Positions 18,128-30,873 of a stretch of DNA of 34,055 nucleotides are shown piece after piece; within the stretch, counting starts at the first letter, position 1; the number at the start of each line of letters is the position of its first letter. This stretch comes from Armatimonadota bacterium (GTDB taxonomy: Bacteria; Armatimonadota; UBA5829; DTJY01): NCBI GenBank assembly GCA_025358205.1, contig JANYKG010000093.1, positions 1 through 34,055 on the forward strand, in the 5' to 3' direction. The position numbers and the translations under genes were made by a program. Under the pieces are notes generated by a model, which saw nothing but the letters and a program-made list of their open reading frames with translations, searched no databases and had not been told where the DNA came from.

Positions 18128-18156
18128 TTGCGTTCAGAGTTCAGAACCATTATAAT
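18128..18156 (+). promoter_or_regulatory. Promoter of the methyltransferase gene
   Basis: TTGCGT (18128-18133), 17 nt, then TATAAT (18151-18156). Its -10 overlaps the -10 of the divergent vsr promoter in the palindrome ATTATAAT. Confidence 0.65.
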
Positions 18157-18177
18157 GCGTATGTCACGGTTGCGCAA
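18149..18177 (-). promoter_or_regulatory. Promoter of vsr
   Basis: On the minus strand TTGCGC (18177-18172), 17 nt, then TATAAT (18154-18149). This mirrors the methyltransferase promoter. The -35 lies in the palindrome TTGCGCAA. Confidence 0.6.
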
Positions 18178-18196
18178 GAAAAAACAGGAGGAGCAT

Positions 18197-19207
18197 ATGA
18201 CCGTCAAGTACATTGACCTTTTCTGCGGTATAGGTGGTTTTCGCCTAGGCGCGGAGCGTGCTCTCCACTCCAGAGGAGTAGACTGTGAATGTGTTTTCTC
18301 CTCAGACATAGATAAAGACGCCCAACAGGTCTACCATACGAATTTCGGTGAACGTCCCGCTGGAGACATCACAAAAATCGAGGCGGAAGAAATACCCGAC
18401 CACAGCCTTCTTTTGGCAGGATTTCCGTGTCAACCCTTCAGCATCATTGGTTCGTCGAAAGGCTTTGACGATACCCGCGGCACACTGTTCTTCGACATAG
18501 CAAGAATCCTCGAGGCAAAGAAACCTGAAGCCTTCGTTCTGGAAAACGTGAAGCAGTTGGCTGGACATGACAGCGGACGCACCCTAAGCAGGATTCTGGA
18601 AACACTCGACGAACTCGGCTACACTCATGCCCACCGTATCCTCAACGCACTTGATTTCGGCCTGCCTCAAAAACGGGAGCGCATCATCATTGTGGGTTTC
18701 CGTTCCGCGAGAAGCTTCGCTTGGCCGCTTTCGCCTGTCCCAATGGCGCCGCTGGCCGACATACTAGAGCAGGATGTTCCGCCTGAATACTATTTGTCGG
18801 ATCGGATAAGGCAGAACCGACTCAAAGCATGTAGTCCGTCCGATGAACCAACAATATGGCATGAGAACAAATCTGGGCATGTAAGCAAATACCCTTACAG
18901 TTGCGCACTGAGGGCCGCAGCCAGCTACAACTACTTGGTAGTGGATGGTGTTCGGCGCTTAACACCGCGTGAAATGATGAGACTTCAGGGATTCCCTGAT
19001 TCCTTCCAAATAACATCCAAGTACACCCAGGTACGACGGCAAGCTGGAAACGCCGTACCAGTGCCATTGGTGCAGGCTGTAGTCGAAAGGGTCGTTGATG
19101 CTATGGGATGGGGCACTTGCCACGAAACAACCTACATCTCAGTGCCAGACCAATACATGATGGTGATAGAGGAGAAGGCGGAGTATGGAACCCCCCAGAA
19201 TACGTAA
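18197..19207 (+). CDS. DNA (cytosine-5-)-methyltransferase
   Basis: This is a 336-residue protein. The ATG at 18197 has AGGAGGAG 4-6 nt upstream; an in-frame ATG at 18128 lies in the promoter and is rejected. The conserved motifs occur in order: I (DLFCGIGGFRLG), IV with the catalytic Cys (GFPCQPFS), VI (VLENVKQL), VIII (LPQKRERI), IX (RRLTPREMMRLQGFPDSF) and X (RRQAGNAVPVPL). The target-recognition region between VIII and IX is short (about 80 residues), typical of simple type II enzymes. The recognised sequence cannot be read from this. It overlaps the next gene by 23 nt and faces vsr, so the three form a type II restriction-modification locus. Composition is somewhat more AT-rich than the housekeeping neighbours. 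Confidence 0.96.
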   Translation: MTVKYIDLFCGIGGFRLGAERALHSRGVDCECVFSSDIDKDAQQVYHTNFGERPAGDITKIEAEEIPDHSLLLAGFPCQPFSIIGSSKGFDDTRGTLFFDIARILEAKKPEAFVLENVKQLAGHDSGRTLSRILETLDELGYTHAHRILNALDFGLPQKRERIIIVGFRSARSFAWPLSPVPMAPLADILEQDVPPEYYLSDRIRQNRLKACSPSDEPTIWHENKSGHVSKYPYSCALRAAASYNYLVVDGVRRLTPREMMRLQGFPDSFQITSKYTQVRRQAGNAVPVPLVQAVVERVVDAMGWGTCHETTYISVPDQYMMVIEEKAEYGTPQNT

Positions 19208-26045: not shown

Positions 26046-27077
26046 CTACCGGGGAGGTAGAATGCCCCAACCCGCACACATGATGTCTATTGAATCTGCG
26101 TCAATGATCTTCTCGCCGTTTTCGGTTGCCACTTTGCCGTGGATGTAGATGAAGTCTCCGACATTCGGCTTGGTGTCTGATGTTTTGATGTGGATGCCGA
26201 CACGCGAGTCGGGGTGTTCGGCCAGCAGGAAGCCATCAGACTTCTTCGTCACCACCAGATGCCCGAAGTTCGCAGGTGTTCCATCGGCCTGGCTCTTGGC
26301 CCAGACCGCGCCAGGATGACCGCCCGTCGTAGTGCGCAAGATGTCCCCGCCGAACGTCCAGCCGTTGTTCGCATCGGAGAAGTACATCGCCCACATGCCG
26401 AGCGATCCGAAGTCCTGGACCGTCCAGGTGTGGCCGCCGTCGCTCGTGTGAACCATCGCATTGCCGGCGATCCAGCCTTCCTTGTCGTTGGCGAAGCATA
26501 TCACGCCGATCGGGGTCTTGGTCCCGGAGTCCTGCTTGACCCAGGTGTCGCCGCCATCGGTGGTCATGAGCACCGTGCCGGAGTTGCCGGCCGCCCAGCC
26601 GGTGTTCTCATCCCGGAAGTAGACGCCGCCCAGGCCAACCGTTACTCCGGTAGCCTGGCGCTTCCACGTCTTGCCACCGTCGGTAGTCTTCATCACGCGG
26701 CCGTTCGCACCGGAGATCCAACCTGTGTTCTTGTTCAGGAAGCAGATTCCGACAAGCGGATCCATGGTGCCGGTGCTGAGCTTGGTCCAGGTCGCCCCGC
26801 CATCGGTTGTCTTGATCACGGTGCCTTCCTGGCCGACCGCCCATCCGGTGTTCGTGTCAACGAACTTCAGGCCGTACAGCATGGCCTTGTTCCCGGTATC
26901 CTGCATCTGCCAGGTCTTGCCTCCGTCTTTGGTGGCCGCCACTTCGCCGGACATGCAGGTAGCCCAGCCGTGCTTCTCATCCGCGAAGCAGGTCTGTATG
27001 AGCTGGCCCTTAGCCGGAAGCACCTGGCGGGTCCAGGTCTGCCAGGCATCCTCCGTCCTCATCACCATGCAGCCCAC
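26046..27077 (-). pseudogene. C-terminal part of an amber-interrupted YCF48/BNR-repeat gene
   Basis: This part is 343 residues if started at the GTG at 27077. However, it is in the same reading frame as the upstream part and the frame is open all the way back to the TAG at 27177-27179, with no other stop. It continues the same repeat pattern: ACAVGYSQ-type strand, RTEDAWQTW, TKDGGKTW, TTDGGATW, TTDGGKTW, TTDGGDTW and TSDGGHTW, each followed by a GWAxG strand. The last 70 residues are not repeats (PNVGDFIYIHGKVATENGEK). No good ribosome site precedes the GTG. It is therefore best read as the second half of one exported propeller protein that would be translated only by readthrough of the TAG, unless reinitiation occurs. 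Confidence 0.75.
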
Positions 27078-27176
27078 GTCAGATCCGTTCTGAGAGTAGC
27101 CGACGGCACAGGCTGCCTTCGGGCCAAGTGAGGCTCCCCCAAGCAGGCAGCGGTCCAGTCCTTTGGACAGCGCCTG

Positions 27177-27179
27177 CTA
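27177..27179 (-). other. In-frame TAG at a conserved Trp position
   Basis: The codons around it read DGGVT-TAG-QALSKG, while all neighbouring repeats have DGGxTW. A single G-to-A change (TGG to TAG) explains the stop. Confidence 0.85.
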
Positions 27180-28241
27180 GGTCACTCCGCCGTCTGATGT
27201 CTTGAGGATCGAGTAATCGCCCACGGCCCAGCCGGTTCTCGCGTCAACCATGTGCACCCGGGGGCGAATGCCGCCAAACCCCGGCGCTCTGGTGGAAGTC
27301 CAGGTCTTGCCGCCGTCCGTGGTCCTCAGCACTCCGTCGTCCGCCGTGATGGCGATGCCATTCTGCGCATCCGAGAAGTGGAAGCTGTATATGTACTTAG
27401 CCTTTCCCAGGCTGGAGTCCGCCCAGGTCTTGCCGCCGTCCGTCGTCTTGAGGATGAGCCAGTTGGTGAGAACCCAGCCGGTGTTGGCGTCCATGAACTG
27501 GACCCCCGCGGCATGGCCTTTGTTCTGCATCGCGGTGTGTGACCAGGTCTTGCCGCCATCCGCTGTCTTGTATATGTCGAGGTCGCCACCGGTGGTGCCC
27601 ACAACATAGCCCGTGCTCTCATCTACGAACCAGACGCCCTCAAATATCCTCATCTGCTTGTCCGTTAGTGAGACGCCGCAGTCCTGACGGTACCACGTTT
27701 CTCCGCCATCGGTGGTCTTGAGGATCAGGCCTGCCTTACCGGGCATTCCCCCGACTGCCCAGCCGATGTTGTTGTTCACGAAGCAGACTGACCTCAGGCC
27801 GTCAGTCCTGCGGTCCAGCACTGTCTTCCACGTAGCTCCACTGTCGGACGTCTTGAGGATGATGCCGGTCTCGTCGCCCAGACTCGACATCCCTGCGCCG
27901 ACGGCCCAGCCGTGGTCCTTGTCCGTGAAATCCATATCATACATGAACTTGTCGGGAAGCCGTGGGCCCTGGGGGGCCCAGTTCTTGCCACCATCGGTGG
28001 TCTTCATGATGACACAGTGGTTGCCGATGATCCATCCGGTCTTGTCGTCAATGAACTGCACAGCCGACCACTGCCGGGCGCTCGGCTTCGGCATCACGGA
28101 CTCCCAACCGCCGTCACCTGTGGAAATGAACGACGCGGCGCAAGCGTTCTGTGCAAGATTCAATGAACTGAGCAGCAAGGCAAGCAAGAGAAATACAACT
28201 GAAGCAAGTACCGCCGAACTGAATCTTAGTATCTTACGCAT
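27177..28241 (-). CDS. N-terminal part of an exported YCF48/BNR-repeat protein (ends at TAG)
   Basis: This part has 354 residues before the TAG. AGAGGAG lies about 8 nt before the ATG at 28241. A signal peptide spans residues 1-36 (MRKILRFSSAVLASVVFLLL, ending NACAASF). The mature part is a string of YCF48-like/BNR propeller units: MKTTDGGKNW, LKTSDSGATW, LKTTDGGETW, YKTADGGKTW, LKTTDGGKTW and LRTTDGGKTW, each followed by a GWxxG strand. It stops inside the seventh, LKTSDGGVT, before its Trp. In Synechocystis and plants YCF48 (Hcf136) assists photosystem II assembly, but in other bacteria such propellers are general extracellular binding folds. It is the last gene of the minus-strand cluster after the sigma, anti-sigma and STN-like genes. 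Confidence 0.85.
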   Translation of the reverse strand: MRKILRFSSAVLASVVFLLLALLLSSLNLAQNACAASFISTGDGGWESVMPKPSARQWSAVQFIDDKTGWIIGNHCVIMKTTDGGKNWAPQGPRLPDKFMYDMDFTDKDHGWAVGAGMSSLGDETGIILKTSDSGATWKTVLDRRTDGLRSVCFVNNNIGWAVGGMPGKAGLILKTTDGGETWYRQDCGVSLTDKQMRIFEGVWFVDESTGYVVGTTGGDLDIYKTADGGKTWSHTAMQNKGHAAGVQFMDANTGWVLTNWLILKTTDGGKTWADSSLGKAKYIYSFHFSDAQNGIAITADDGVLRTTDGGKTWTSTRAPGFGGIRPRVHMVDARTGWAVGDYSILKTSDGGVT

Positions 28242-28303
28242 GCATGCATCTCCTCTACCATGGCAGTTCTGTACCTGGCTGATAGCACGGTCACAGCCTT
28301 GCG

Positions 28304-29470
28304 CTACTTCGGTGTGGATGCGCCATCAGACGATGCCGGGACACCCAACGCTCCCTGAGATGGTAGCGGGAGCGTCTCTATCATATACGTGGGGCTGCTC
28401 GCCAGGCCGACTTTGCGGTACTTCAGCCGACATGCAGGCAGCAAATTGTCCAGCGCCTGTTCCAGTGTTACATCTCGGAGTTGCGCTGTGATCGCCTTTG
28501 GTTTGGCAAATACCAACTCGCTCTTCACGTCTTCGCTACGAGCGGCCGATGACGACTTGTCATAGTACTCCACCTGAACGTCCGGACGTAGGCTTAGATC
28601 GCCCATCACATAGCTCTTGCCGCTCAGTGAGAGCAGCCGCTCCAGCAGCACGGTGTCCACTGCGCCGTTTGCCAGGATAGTGAACTGCTGCTGGTTTCCG
28701 CGCATGTAGGCCGCCAGTGAAACACCTTCCTTCTGAGCCTGGGAGATGCCGCCCGCCGCCTGGTTGGCATTGAGATAGTTCTGCGGCGCATATCCGCCTT
28801 GAGGCGAGTTGCTCTGAACCTGTGCTTTCTGCGGCATGTACTGGTAGGTTTGCGCCAAATCGGTCTTGCCCTTGCTGGTAACTTGAGCGCCCTTGCCCGA
28901 CGGAGGAACGAGGCCCGCTGCGGTAAGCAGGACGGCAGCAGCCATCTCGCGCGGGAACTGGTAGAACTTGGCGCCCGGCATGCGCATCCGTCCAAGGTTG
29001 TCGCCGAAGGTCCAGCCGCACGCGGGGCAGACCAGTGCGAGAGCATCCTTCACGGGCATCGGCAGGACGTTCAGAGTCACCAGATCGGGTGGCGCGATAA
29101 CTGCCGGCGCCATCGCCACCTGTGCCTGTGCCGATTTGGGAGACGGTATCGGCTGAACGATTCCCTTGTTCTCACCAGTGCTGACGATCTCAAGGTTGTT
29201 CGTCCGAAGCACGTTGGTCAGCACGTCGTTCCAGCTCGCGTTCTGCACTCGCAGGTTGACGACAATCTTGTCATAAGGCGGCGCGTCCAACGCGGGTGAC
29301 AGGGTGTACTCCCCTCCCATGTACTGAAGCATCTGCTGGATCGCCTGCTTCAGGGGCATGTTCTCCAGGTTCGCGTTGGTAGTCTGCTGTGACGTTATCA
29401 CCGGCACCTGCTGAGCCATCGCCGCGGTTCCAAGAACAAGGCATAGAATGATAATGGCTATGGTTTTCAT
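28304..29470 (-). CDS. Exported STN/secretin N-domain-like protein
   Basis: This is a 388-residue protein with AGGAGG 8 nt before the ATG at 29470. The signal peptide is MKTIAIIILCLVLGTAAMAQ. Three segments have the secretin/TonB short N-terminal domain (STN) pattern of a beta strand, a PL-x-x-A-(I/L)-x-x-(L/M) helix and another strand. They are LENMPLKQAIQQMLQYMGG with NASWNDVLTNVLRTNNLEI (35-105), VLPMPVKDALALVCPACGW (about 130-160) and AQLRDVTLEQALDNLLPACR (about 330-360). A Gln/Asn-rich linker separates them. The secretin pore domain itself is absent. Such domains sit in the periplasm in secretins and in FecA-type receptors, where they signal to anti-sigma factors. Here the gene follows an anti-sigma gene by 12 nt, which makes a signalling role possible (inference). 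Confidence 0.7.
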   Translation of the reverse strand: MKTIAIIILCLVLGTAAMAQQVPVITSQQTTNANLENMPLKQAIQQMLQYMGGEYTLSPALDAPPYDKIVVNLRVQNASWNDVLTNVLRTNNLEIVSTGENKGIVQPIPSPKSAQAQVAMAPAVIAPPDLVTLNVLPMPVKDALALVCPACGWTFGDNLGRMRMPGAKFYQFPREMAAAVLLTAAGLVPPSGKGAQVTSKGKTDLAQTYQYMPQKAQVQSNSPQGGYAPQNYLNANQAAGGISQAQKEGVSLAAYMRGNQQQFTILANGAVDTVLLERLLSLSGKSYVMGDLSLRPDVQVEYYDKSSSAARSEDVKSELVFAKPKAITAQLRDVTLEQALDNLLPACRLKYRKVGLASSPTYMIETLPLPSQGALGVPASSDGASTPK

Positions 29471-29482
29471 AAATACAGCCTC

Positions 29483-30313
29483 CTAAGACCCCATGGGTCT
29501 GCTTGATGTGGTTTCTATGATCTCTTCGCTGCCTTCGCTGTCGCGAGTATACTCGTAGACCGCGGTGGCCCCGGTTGATCTGTCGGTTGATGTTATGCTT
29601 ATCTCTGTCGGCACGGGCACGTCCGGCTGCGGGCTATCGTCAATATCGCAGGCCAATACGATGACCGACCCTTCAGGTTTCGTCTCCTTGCCTCCCGCTG
29701 AGTCGAACGCCCACGTCCCTGATGCACGACCAGGGATCGGCGCGGATGCGGGTGCCATGGCCTTCATAGCCATCGCTTCGCTGCCCGATGAATCATTGTC
29801 ATACGCCAGACCCAGAGCCGGTGGAGGCGCGGGCCTCCCCGGTGTGCGGATATCGGCCAGCGCAACCATGTTGTGTCGCACTCTGGGGCGAGACGACTCA
29901 GTAGGCTTCTTAGGCTCGGGCGCGGTCGTCGGTTCTGGCGGTGGGCCAGCCTCAGGAAGAACCGTCCGATGCTCAGAAACCTTGCTCGCAAGCTGCGGCT
30001 GAGTTGACTCGTGGGTCCTCGGCATAAGCATGATGCCCGCCAGCACGGCTGCTAGTGCGGCAGTGGCAAACACCGGACGCGCCCACGACCATCCTCTCCT
30101 CGGCTCCGGCAGGCGCAGGACGTCCAGCGCAGTCGGACATTCGACTGACTCACGCGGCTGAGCAAGTGCGCACAACGCGGCCTGATACCCCGCATACTCC
30201 GATGCGCACGCCGGGCACAAAGCCATATGTGCATGCGCCAGAGCGGCGGTCTTCTCATCTATCTCACCGGAAACCATTTCCGGCAGGATTCTTTCTATTT
30301 GACGGCAGTTCAT
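29483..30313 (-). CDS. Anti-sigma factor with zf-HC2 domain and one transmembrane helix
   Basis: This is a 276-residue protein. The ATG at 30313 overlaps the TGA of the sigma gene (ATGA), so translation is coupled. Residues 1-45 form a zf-HC2 domain (MNCRQIERILPEMVSG, then HAHMALCPAC), with Cys3 and the H-x3-C-x2-C cluster. One transmembrane helix follows at about residues 77-95 (RPVFATAALAAVLAGIMLMP). A Pro/Ala-rich extracytoplasmic region with a beta-rich tail (TEISITSTDRSTG) lies outside. In this family the cytoplasmic zinc finger holds the ECF sigma factor and the outer part senses envelope signals. The next gene, 12 nt on, encodes an STN-like exported protein that could be its partner. 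Confidence 0.85.
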   Translation of the reverse strand: MNCRQIERILPEMVSGEIDEKTAALAHAHMALCPACASEYAGYQAALCALAQPRESVECPTALDVLRLPEPRRGWSWARPVFATAALAAVLAGIMLMPRTHESTQPQLASKVSEHRTVLPEAGPPPEPTTAPEPKKPTESSRPRVRHNMVALADIRTPGRPAPPPALGLAYDNDSSGSEAMAMKAMAPASAPIPGRASGTWAFDSAGGKETKPEGSVIVLACDIDDSPQPDVPVPTEISITSTDRSTGATAVYEYTRDSEGSEEIIETTSSRPMGS

Positions 30314-30873
30314 TTCTCTATTGCCTCGTACTTCTTCTTGAAGGCGGCTCTTGCCCGATGCAGCCTGGTGCGAGCAGCGCCTTCGGAACAGCCCAGCGCA
30401 TCCGCCAACTCCACGCAGTTCAGCCCCTCGAAATAAAAGAGTACCAGCGCGCCCCGCATGTCCGGGCTGAGCTGAAGGATAGCATCCCACACCTCGTCCC
30501 TAGGCTCATCATGCACCGGCGGCTCACTCACCGCCTCGACCTTCCGCTGCAGGCTCATCTCCTGCCGGAGTATCCCTGTGCAGGAGTTTACCGCTATCCG
30601 GTACAGCCACGACCTGAATGCCGAGTCACCCCGGAACCTGTTCAACGCGCGATAGGCCTGGATGAATGTGGTCTGGGTGGCGTCCACCGCGTCATCCGGC
30701 GAGCCGAGCATGCGGTAACAGACGTTGTAGACAAAGCGTTTGTGCTGCTGAAAGAGCGAATCGAAGGCGGCACGAGACCCATCGCGTGCCTGCCTTACCA
30801 ACTCCGCGTCACGACCATACTGATCAGCAGCCAGTTCGCTCGTCATATCCAACGTGTTTCGCATTCGCCTCAT
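30310..30873 (-). CDS. ECF-type RNA polymerase sigma factor
   Basis: This is a 187-residue protein from the ATG at 30873; there is no good ribosome site there, and ATGs at 30864 and 30846 are alternatives. Sigma region 2 is seen as AAFDSLFQQHKRFVYNVCYR, DDAVDATQTTFIQAYRAL and FRSWLYRIAVNSC. Region 4 is seen as ELADALGCSEGAARTRLHRA. It is a group 4 (ECF) factor of the RpoE/SigW kind. It overlaps its anti-sigma gene by 4 nt and probably controls this operon itself. No sequence matching a known ECF promoter motif could be fixed in the 95 nt upstream. Confidence 0.93.
   Translation of the reverse strand: MRRMRNTLDMTSELAADQYGRDAELVRQARDGSRAAFDSLFQQHKRFVYNVCYRMLGSPDDAVDATQTTFIQAYRALNRFRGDSAFRSWLYRIAVNSCTGILRQEMSLQRKVEAVSEPPVHDEPRDEVWDAILQLSPDMRGALVLFYFEGLNCVELADALGCSEGAARTRLHRARAAFKKKYEAIEK

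Follow-up and report, generated by a model that had tools for sequence, protein, structure and literature searches.

A single in-frame TAG at the Trp codon of an Asp-box repeat interrupts a YCF48-like gene of an Armatimonadota bacterium, probably as a recent nonsense mutation

Within the window, i.e., the whole stretch of 34,055 nucleotides that was analysed, a minus-strand reading frame running from 28241 to 26046 comprises 731 codons and contains a single internal stop, a TAG at codon 355 (27179-27177; Table 1). In the ORF list this frame appears as two minus-strand ORFs, an ATG-started ORF of 354 aa (27177-28241 including the stop) and a GTG-started ORF of 343 aa (26046-27077), and none of the 33 codons that separate the GTG from the TAG is a stop, in agreement with a sequence-only reading that had described same-frame ORFs with an open interval, the strand being left unstated there. 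The ribosome-binding site preceding the ATG of the gene is good (AGAGGAGA). Translation revealed neither a further stop nor a frameshift in the 376 codons following the TAG, and no compensating frameshift was found near the TAG, since the alignment with the ortholog described below is gap-free across codons 355-403.

The Pfam profile PF14870 matches the read-through protein with an E-value of 4.1e-55 (187.6 bits, compared to a curated cut-off of 27) and the separate halves with E-values of 2.4e-28 and 1.9e-29 (99.7 and 103.3 bits). An ortholog with 53% identity over 731 residues is present in another genus of the same family (genome G003, contig C18), where it forms one ORF and carries TGG opposite the internal TAG. 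Due to the fact that both halves match PF14870 separately and that a relative from another genus has a single frame with TGG, the frame match is not a matter of chance. The views that one gene is split by a TAG, and that this TAG occupies a conserved Trp codon one base away from TGG, are thereby borne out, the latter through the TGG of the ortholog at the site.

Synteny with G003 comprises upstream genes encoding a DAHP synthase and a radical-SAM/B12 protein and a downstream, convergent gene encoding a Gfo/Idh/MocA oxidoreductase, with the window genes identified via Pfam and the G003 genes recognised from their translations. Both the propeller gene and the adjoining Gfo/Idh/MocA gene stop at TAG; their G003 orthologs stop at TGA. 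Directly upstream and on the same strand (28304-30490, minus), genes for an STN-domain (secretin/TonB N-terminus) protein and a zf-HC2 protein (putative anti-sigma factor) are situated, which possibly form one operon with the propeller gene. Farther away in the window, a C-5 cytosine DNA methylase gene occurs on the plus strand (18128-19207; PF00145, E 3e-90). Further matches from a set of 28 genomes in the class and 291 in the phylum are more distant than G003, and none of them contains an internal stop. With regard to strain variants, no match was observed in viral contigs or plasmids, and the scan of genome contigs returned only a distant WOR-1 relative. Another distant relative of 858 aa (genome G008, locus L091, 4285-6858) has two copies of the C-terminal domain behind its Asp-box repeats.

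Table 1. Positions in the window of the interrupted gene and its parts
Feature	Position	Strand	Basis and remarks
Whole gene, exported two-propeller YCF48/Asp-box protein (predicted)	26046..28241	minus	731 codons with one internal TAG; single frame; Pfam; uninterrupted ortholog
Shine-Dalgarno-like AGAGGAGA 5' of ATG	28249..28256	minus	sequence before ATG
First ORF, probable signal peptide and repeats 1-7 (putative propeller 1), 354 aa	27180..28241	minus	ORF list, Pfam, repeat positions
Internal TAG, codon 355, Trp of Asp-box repeat 7	27177..27179	minus	translation; TGG in ortholog
Part after TAG, repeats 8-14 (putative propeller 2) and C-terminal domain, 376 codons	26049..27176	minus	translation, Pfam, repeats, ortholog alignment
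C-terminal domain, codons 646-731	26049..26306	minus	85% identity to ortholog; without Pfam family
Terminal TAG of gene	26046..26048	minus	translation, ortholog comparison; ortholog stop is TGA

The read-through protein contains 14 Asp-box/YCF48 repeats, seven on each side of the TAG, which end at residues 88, 138, 183, 233, 273, 314, 355 (the TAG itself), 403, 444, 485, 526, 567, 606, and 647. According to the sequence-only reading all other units carry DGGxTW; this applies to most of them but was slightly overstated, as repeats 1 (DGGKNW), 2 (DSGATW), 8 (DAWQTW), and 14 (TGGHPGAVW) deviate. Its observation that both sides keep their repeat structure stands, given the 7 + 7 repeats and the PF14870 match of each half. 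Stretches of the two halves share about 35% identity. The count of 7 + 7 suggests that the repeats probably fold into two 7-bladed propellers; single-sequence AlphaFold models, with pLDDT values of 32 and 35, are too poor for judging propeller closure. A signal peptide, judged by eye, probably covers approximately residues 1-35, and the C-terminal domain of 86 residues matched no Pfam family. Judged by sequence, the protein resembles the Ycf48/HCF136-like Asp-box propellers (PF14870; PDB 2xbg, 5ojp) in repeat type and fold family, but these consist of one propeller, whereas the gene described here encodes two 7-repeat halves and an extra C-terminal domain. Its two-propeller architecture also sets it apart from Ycf48 of cyanobacteria, the photosystem II assembly factor.

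Compared to the G003 ortholog, dN/dS is 0.36 (0.447/1.26) before and 0.32 (0.343/1.07) after the TAG. In the latter part, propeller 2 has a value of 0.41 and the C-terminal domain, which is 85% identical to that of the ortholog, one of about 0.085. Thus, in dN/dS, identity and openness of the frame relative to the ortholog, no decay is detectable after the TAG. Since a pairwise value spans the entire divergence from G003 and is blind to a short, recent relaxation, dN/dS cannot date the stop. Identity drops to 26% over 35 codons behind the TAG, but this dip ranks 36th among 686 alignment windows and is therefore not unique. With 115 stop-creating single changes in the 376 codons and an indel rate taken as 5% of that of substitutions, a stretch of this length free of selection would still be intact with a chance of 15% at 2% divergence and of less than 1% at 5%. 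Because the downstream part is without decay, further stop or frameshift, the stop is either young, polymorphic, erroneous, or subject to readthrough.

The location at a conserved Trp, which had been regarded as special, loses this status when mutational targets are counted. The gene holds 31 remaining TGG codons in addition to the ancestral one, and 64 of the 86 transition-type stop-creating changes fall at TGG, so that a Trp codon is the likeliest place for a nonsense mutation by transition.

Regarding the decoding of TAG, the genome encodes RF1 (515.6 bits, over the cut-off) as well as another release factor, evidently RF2, both with the GGQ motif; prfA and prfB each terminate in TAG. Around the start of the RF2 gene (locus L017, G000:C177), the classic programmed +1 frameshift seems to be retained, as GGGAGGCATCTTTGACC occurs there and ...NELGRHL* in one frame is continued by ...FDLPKRQ in the next. 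No PylS was found in the genome, which is 97% complete, and none of the 41 tRNA matches, all typed with ARAGORN, carries the anticodon CUA; the only tRNA-Trp has the anticodon CCA. In a 428-kb sample evaluated with crude ORFs (n = 304), TAG terminates 116 (38%), TGA 117, and TAA 71. Coding-like continuation past the stop was observed for 11 of 116 TAG and 16 of 188 TAA and TGA ends (Fisher p 0.84), i.e., without a TAG-specific surplus in these 428 kb, and the inspected TAG cases resemble ordinary adjacent genes, each with its own start codon.

The reading we favour, with a probability of roughly 0.75, is a recent TGG to TAG nonsense mutation that cuts the protein down to its first propeller. 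The ancestral product would have been a single exported protein in which two Asp-box (YCF48-like) propellers of 7 repeats each are followed by a conserved C-terminal domain. TAG would then have replaced the Trp codon of repeat 7 through one change in the sequenced strain or population. RF1 should then end translation at codon 355, leaving a secreted product of 354 aa that would stop where strand 4 of repeat 7 would start and comprise propeller 1 only, without propeller 2 and the C-terminal domain. This product may still hold every strand of propeller 1. The change would be recent or still polymorphic, since the downstream part is undecayed. For this reading we infer a real base, efficient termination, the direction of the change, and the functional effect. 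Readthrough would, however, likewise predict an intact and conserved downstream half. According to a study of premature stops in bacterial genes (Int J Mol Sci 2021, PMC7918605), such stops are widespread and for the most part short-lived, and the cases described there are alike in that one in-frame stop lies in a gene which is otherwise intact and conserved. The cited study, however, stresses stops common to at least two species, whereas the TAG described here occurs in no relative. As expected for a young nonsense-interrupted gene, the G003 ortholog is an intact single ORF with a sense codon, TGG, at this site.

The premature TAG would be an ordinary event, and the main rival of this reading is a consensus error. 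The assembly is a draft of 200 contigs, and a sequencing error or a base from a minority strain, with the gene intact in the living cell, has a modest chance of being the correct explanation. One base would explain everything, and the undecayed downstream half, including the 85% identity of the C-terminal domain to its ortholog, would follow. Isolated wrong bases in a short-read consensus, however, are rare, which counts against this explanation. It is unlikely that the TAG stems from a misjoin between repeat units, because no exact repeat of at least 9 bases within the gene covers position 27178, and the longest one measures 21 bases.

Programmed readthrough is unlikely. We give only a small share of probability to a real TAG that is passed at low but useful frequency by a near-cognate tRNA (Gln, Tyr or Lys), yielding one- and two-propeller proteins. 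Leaky stops in bacterial genes are on record (PMC7918605, PMC11126739), the sequence after the TAG is intact and looks selected, and the cut coincides with the boundary of the two 7-repeat halves. Reporter assays in E. coli place the leakiness of TAG above that of TAA but below that of TGA, with insertion of Tyr, Gln or Lys (PMC11126739). Tyr is the only one of the three that would suit the site well, as the Trp position is always aromatic in known Asp-box structures (PMC2716378); Gln or Lys would place a non-aromatic residue there. Furthermore, the stop is common to no relative; conservation among orthologs, which programmed readthrough would lead one to expect, is lacking, with TGG in G003 and no stop in the distant matches. 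The absence of a TAG-specific surplus of coding continuation in the 428-kb sample likewise speaks against readthrough. No stem-loop follows the TAG, and the structure of the next 120 bases does not exceed that of shuffled sequences (z -0.20), although not every readthrough site has a downstream stimulatory structure. Low-level leakage at the TAG is possible, but unsupported. Even less probable is a real, tolerated leaky stop at the propeller boundary, through which the gene would yield a single secreted propeller along with, via amber readthrough at a low level, some two-propeller protein with the conserved C-terminal domain. Only if the TAG were shown to be read through would the finding gain in importance, as the cut at the domain boundary would then mean that one gene yields two forms of the protein.

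That two separate genes exist, the second starting at an internal GTG or ATG, is very improbable. In-frame start codons are available, namely a GTG at 27077 closely followed by ATG codons, and the coding signal remains high past the TAG, but a Shine-Dalgarno sequence before the GTG is not evident, the second product would be without a signal peptide and start within repeat 8, and the ortholog is one ORF. Reassignment of TAG as a sense codon, pyrrolysine, or a suppressor tRNA, an option raised by the sequence-only reading and favoured by nothing except the in-frame TAG itself, which recalls pyrrolysine and amber-suppressor systems in lying inside a conserved gene, is ruled out for practical purposes, because RF1 is intact, PylS and a CUA tRNA were not found in the 97% complete genome, and TAG, far from being rare, is a usual terminator of crude ORFs and of homology-anchored gene ends; the site, in addition, corresponds to the Trp of a structural repeat, unlike in those systems.

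In case of the favoured nonsense mutation, the function of the protein is probably lost at least partly, since propeller 2 and the C-terminal domain would be missing. For annotation, the two adjoining YCF48 ORFs represent one gene with an internal stop.
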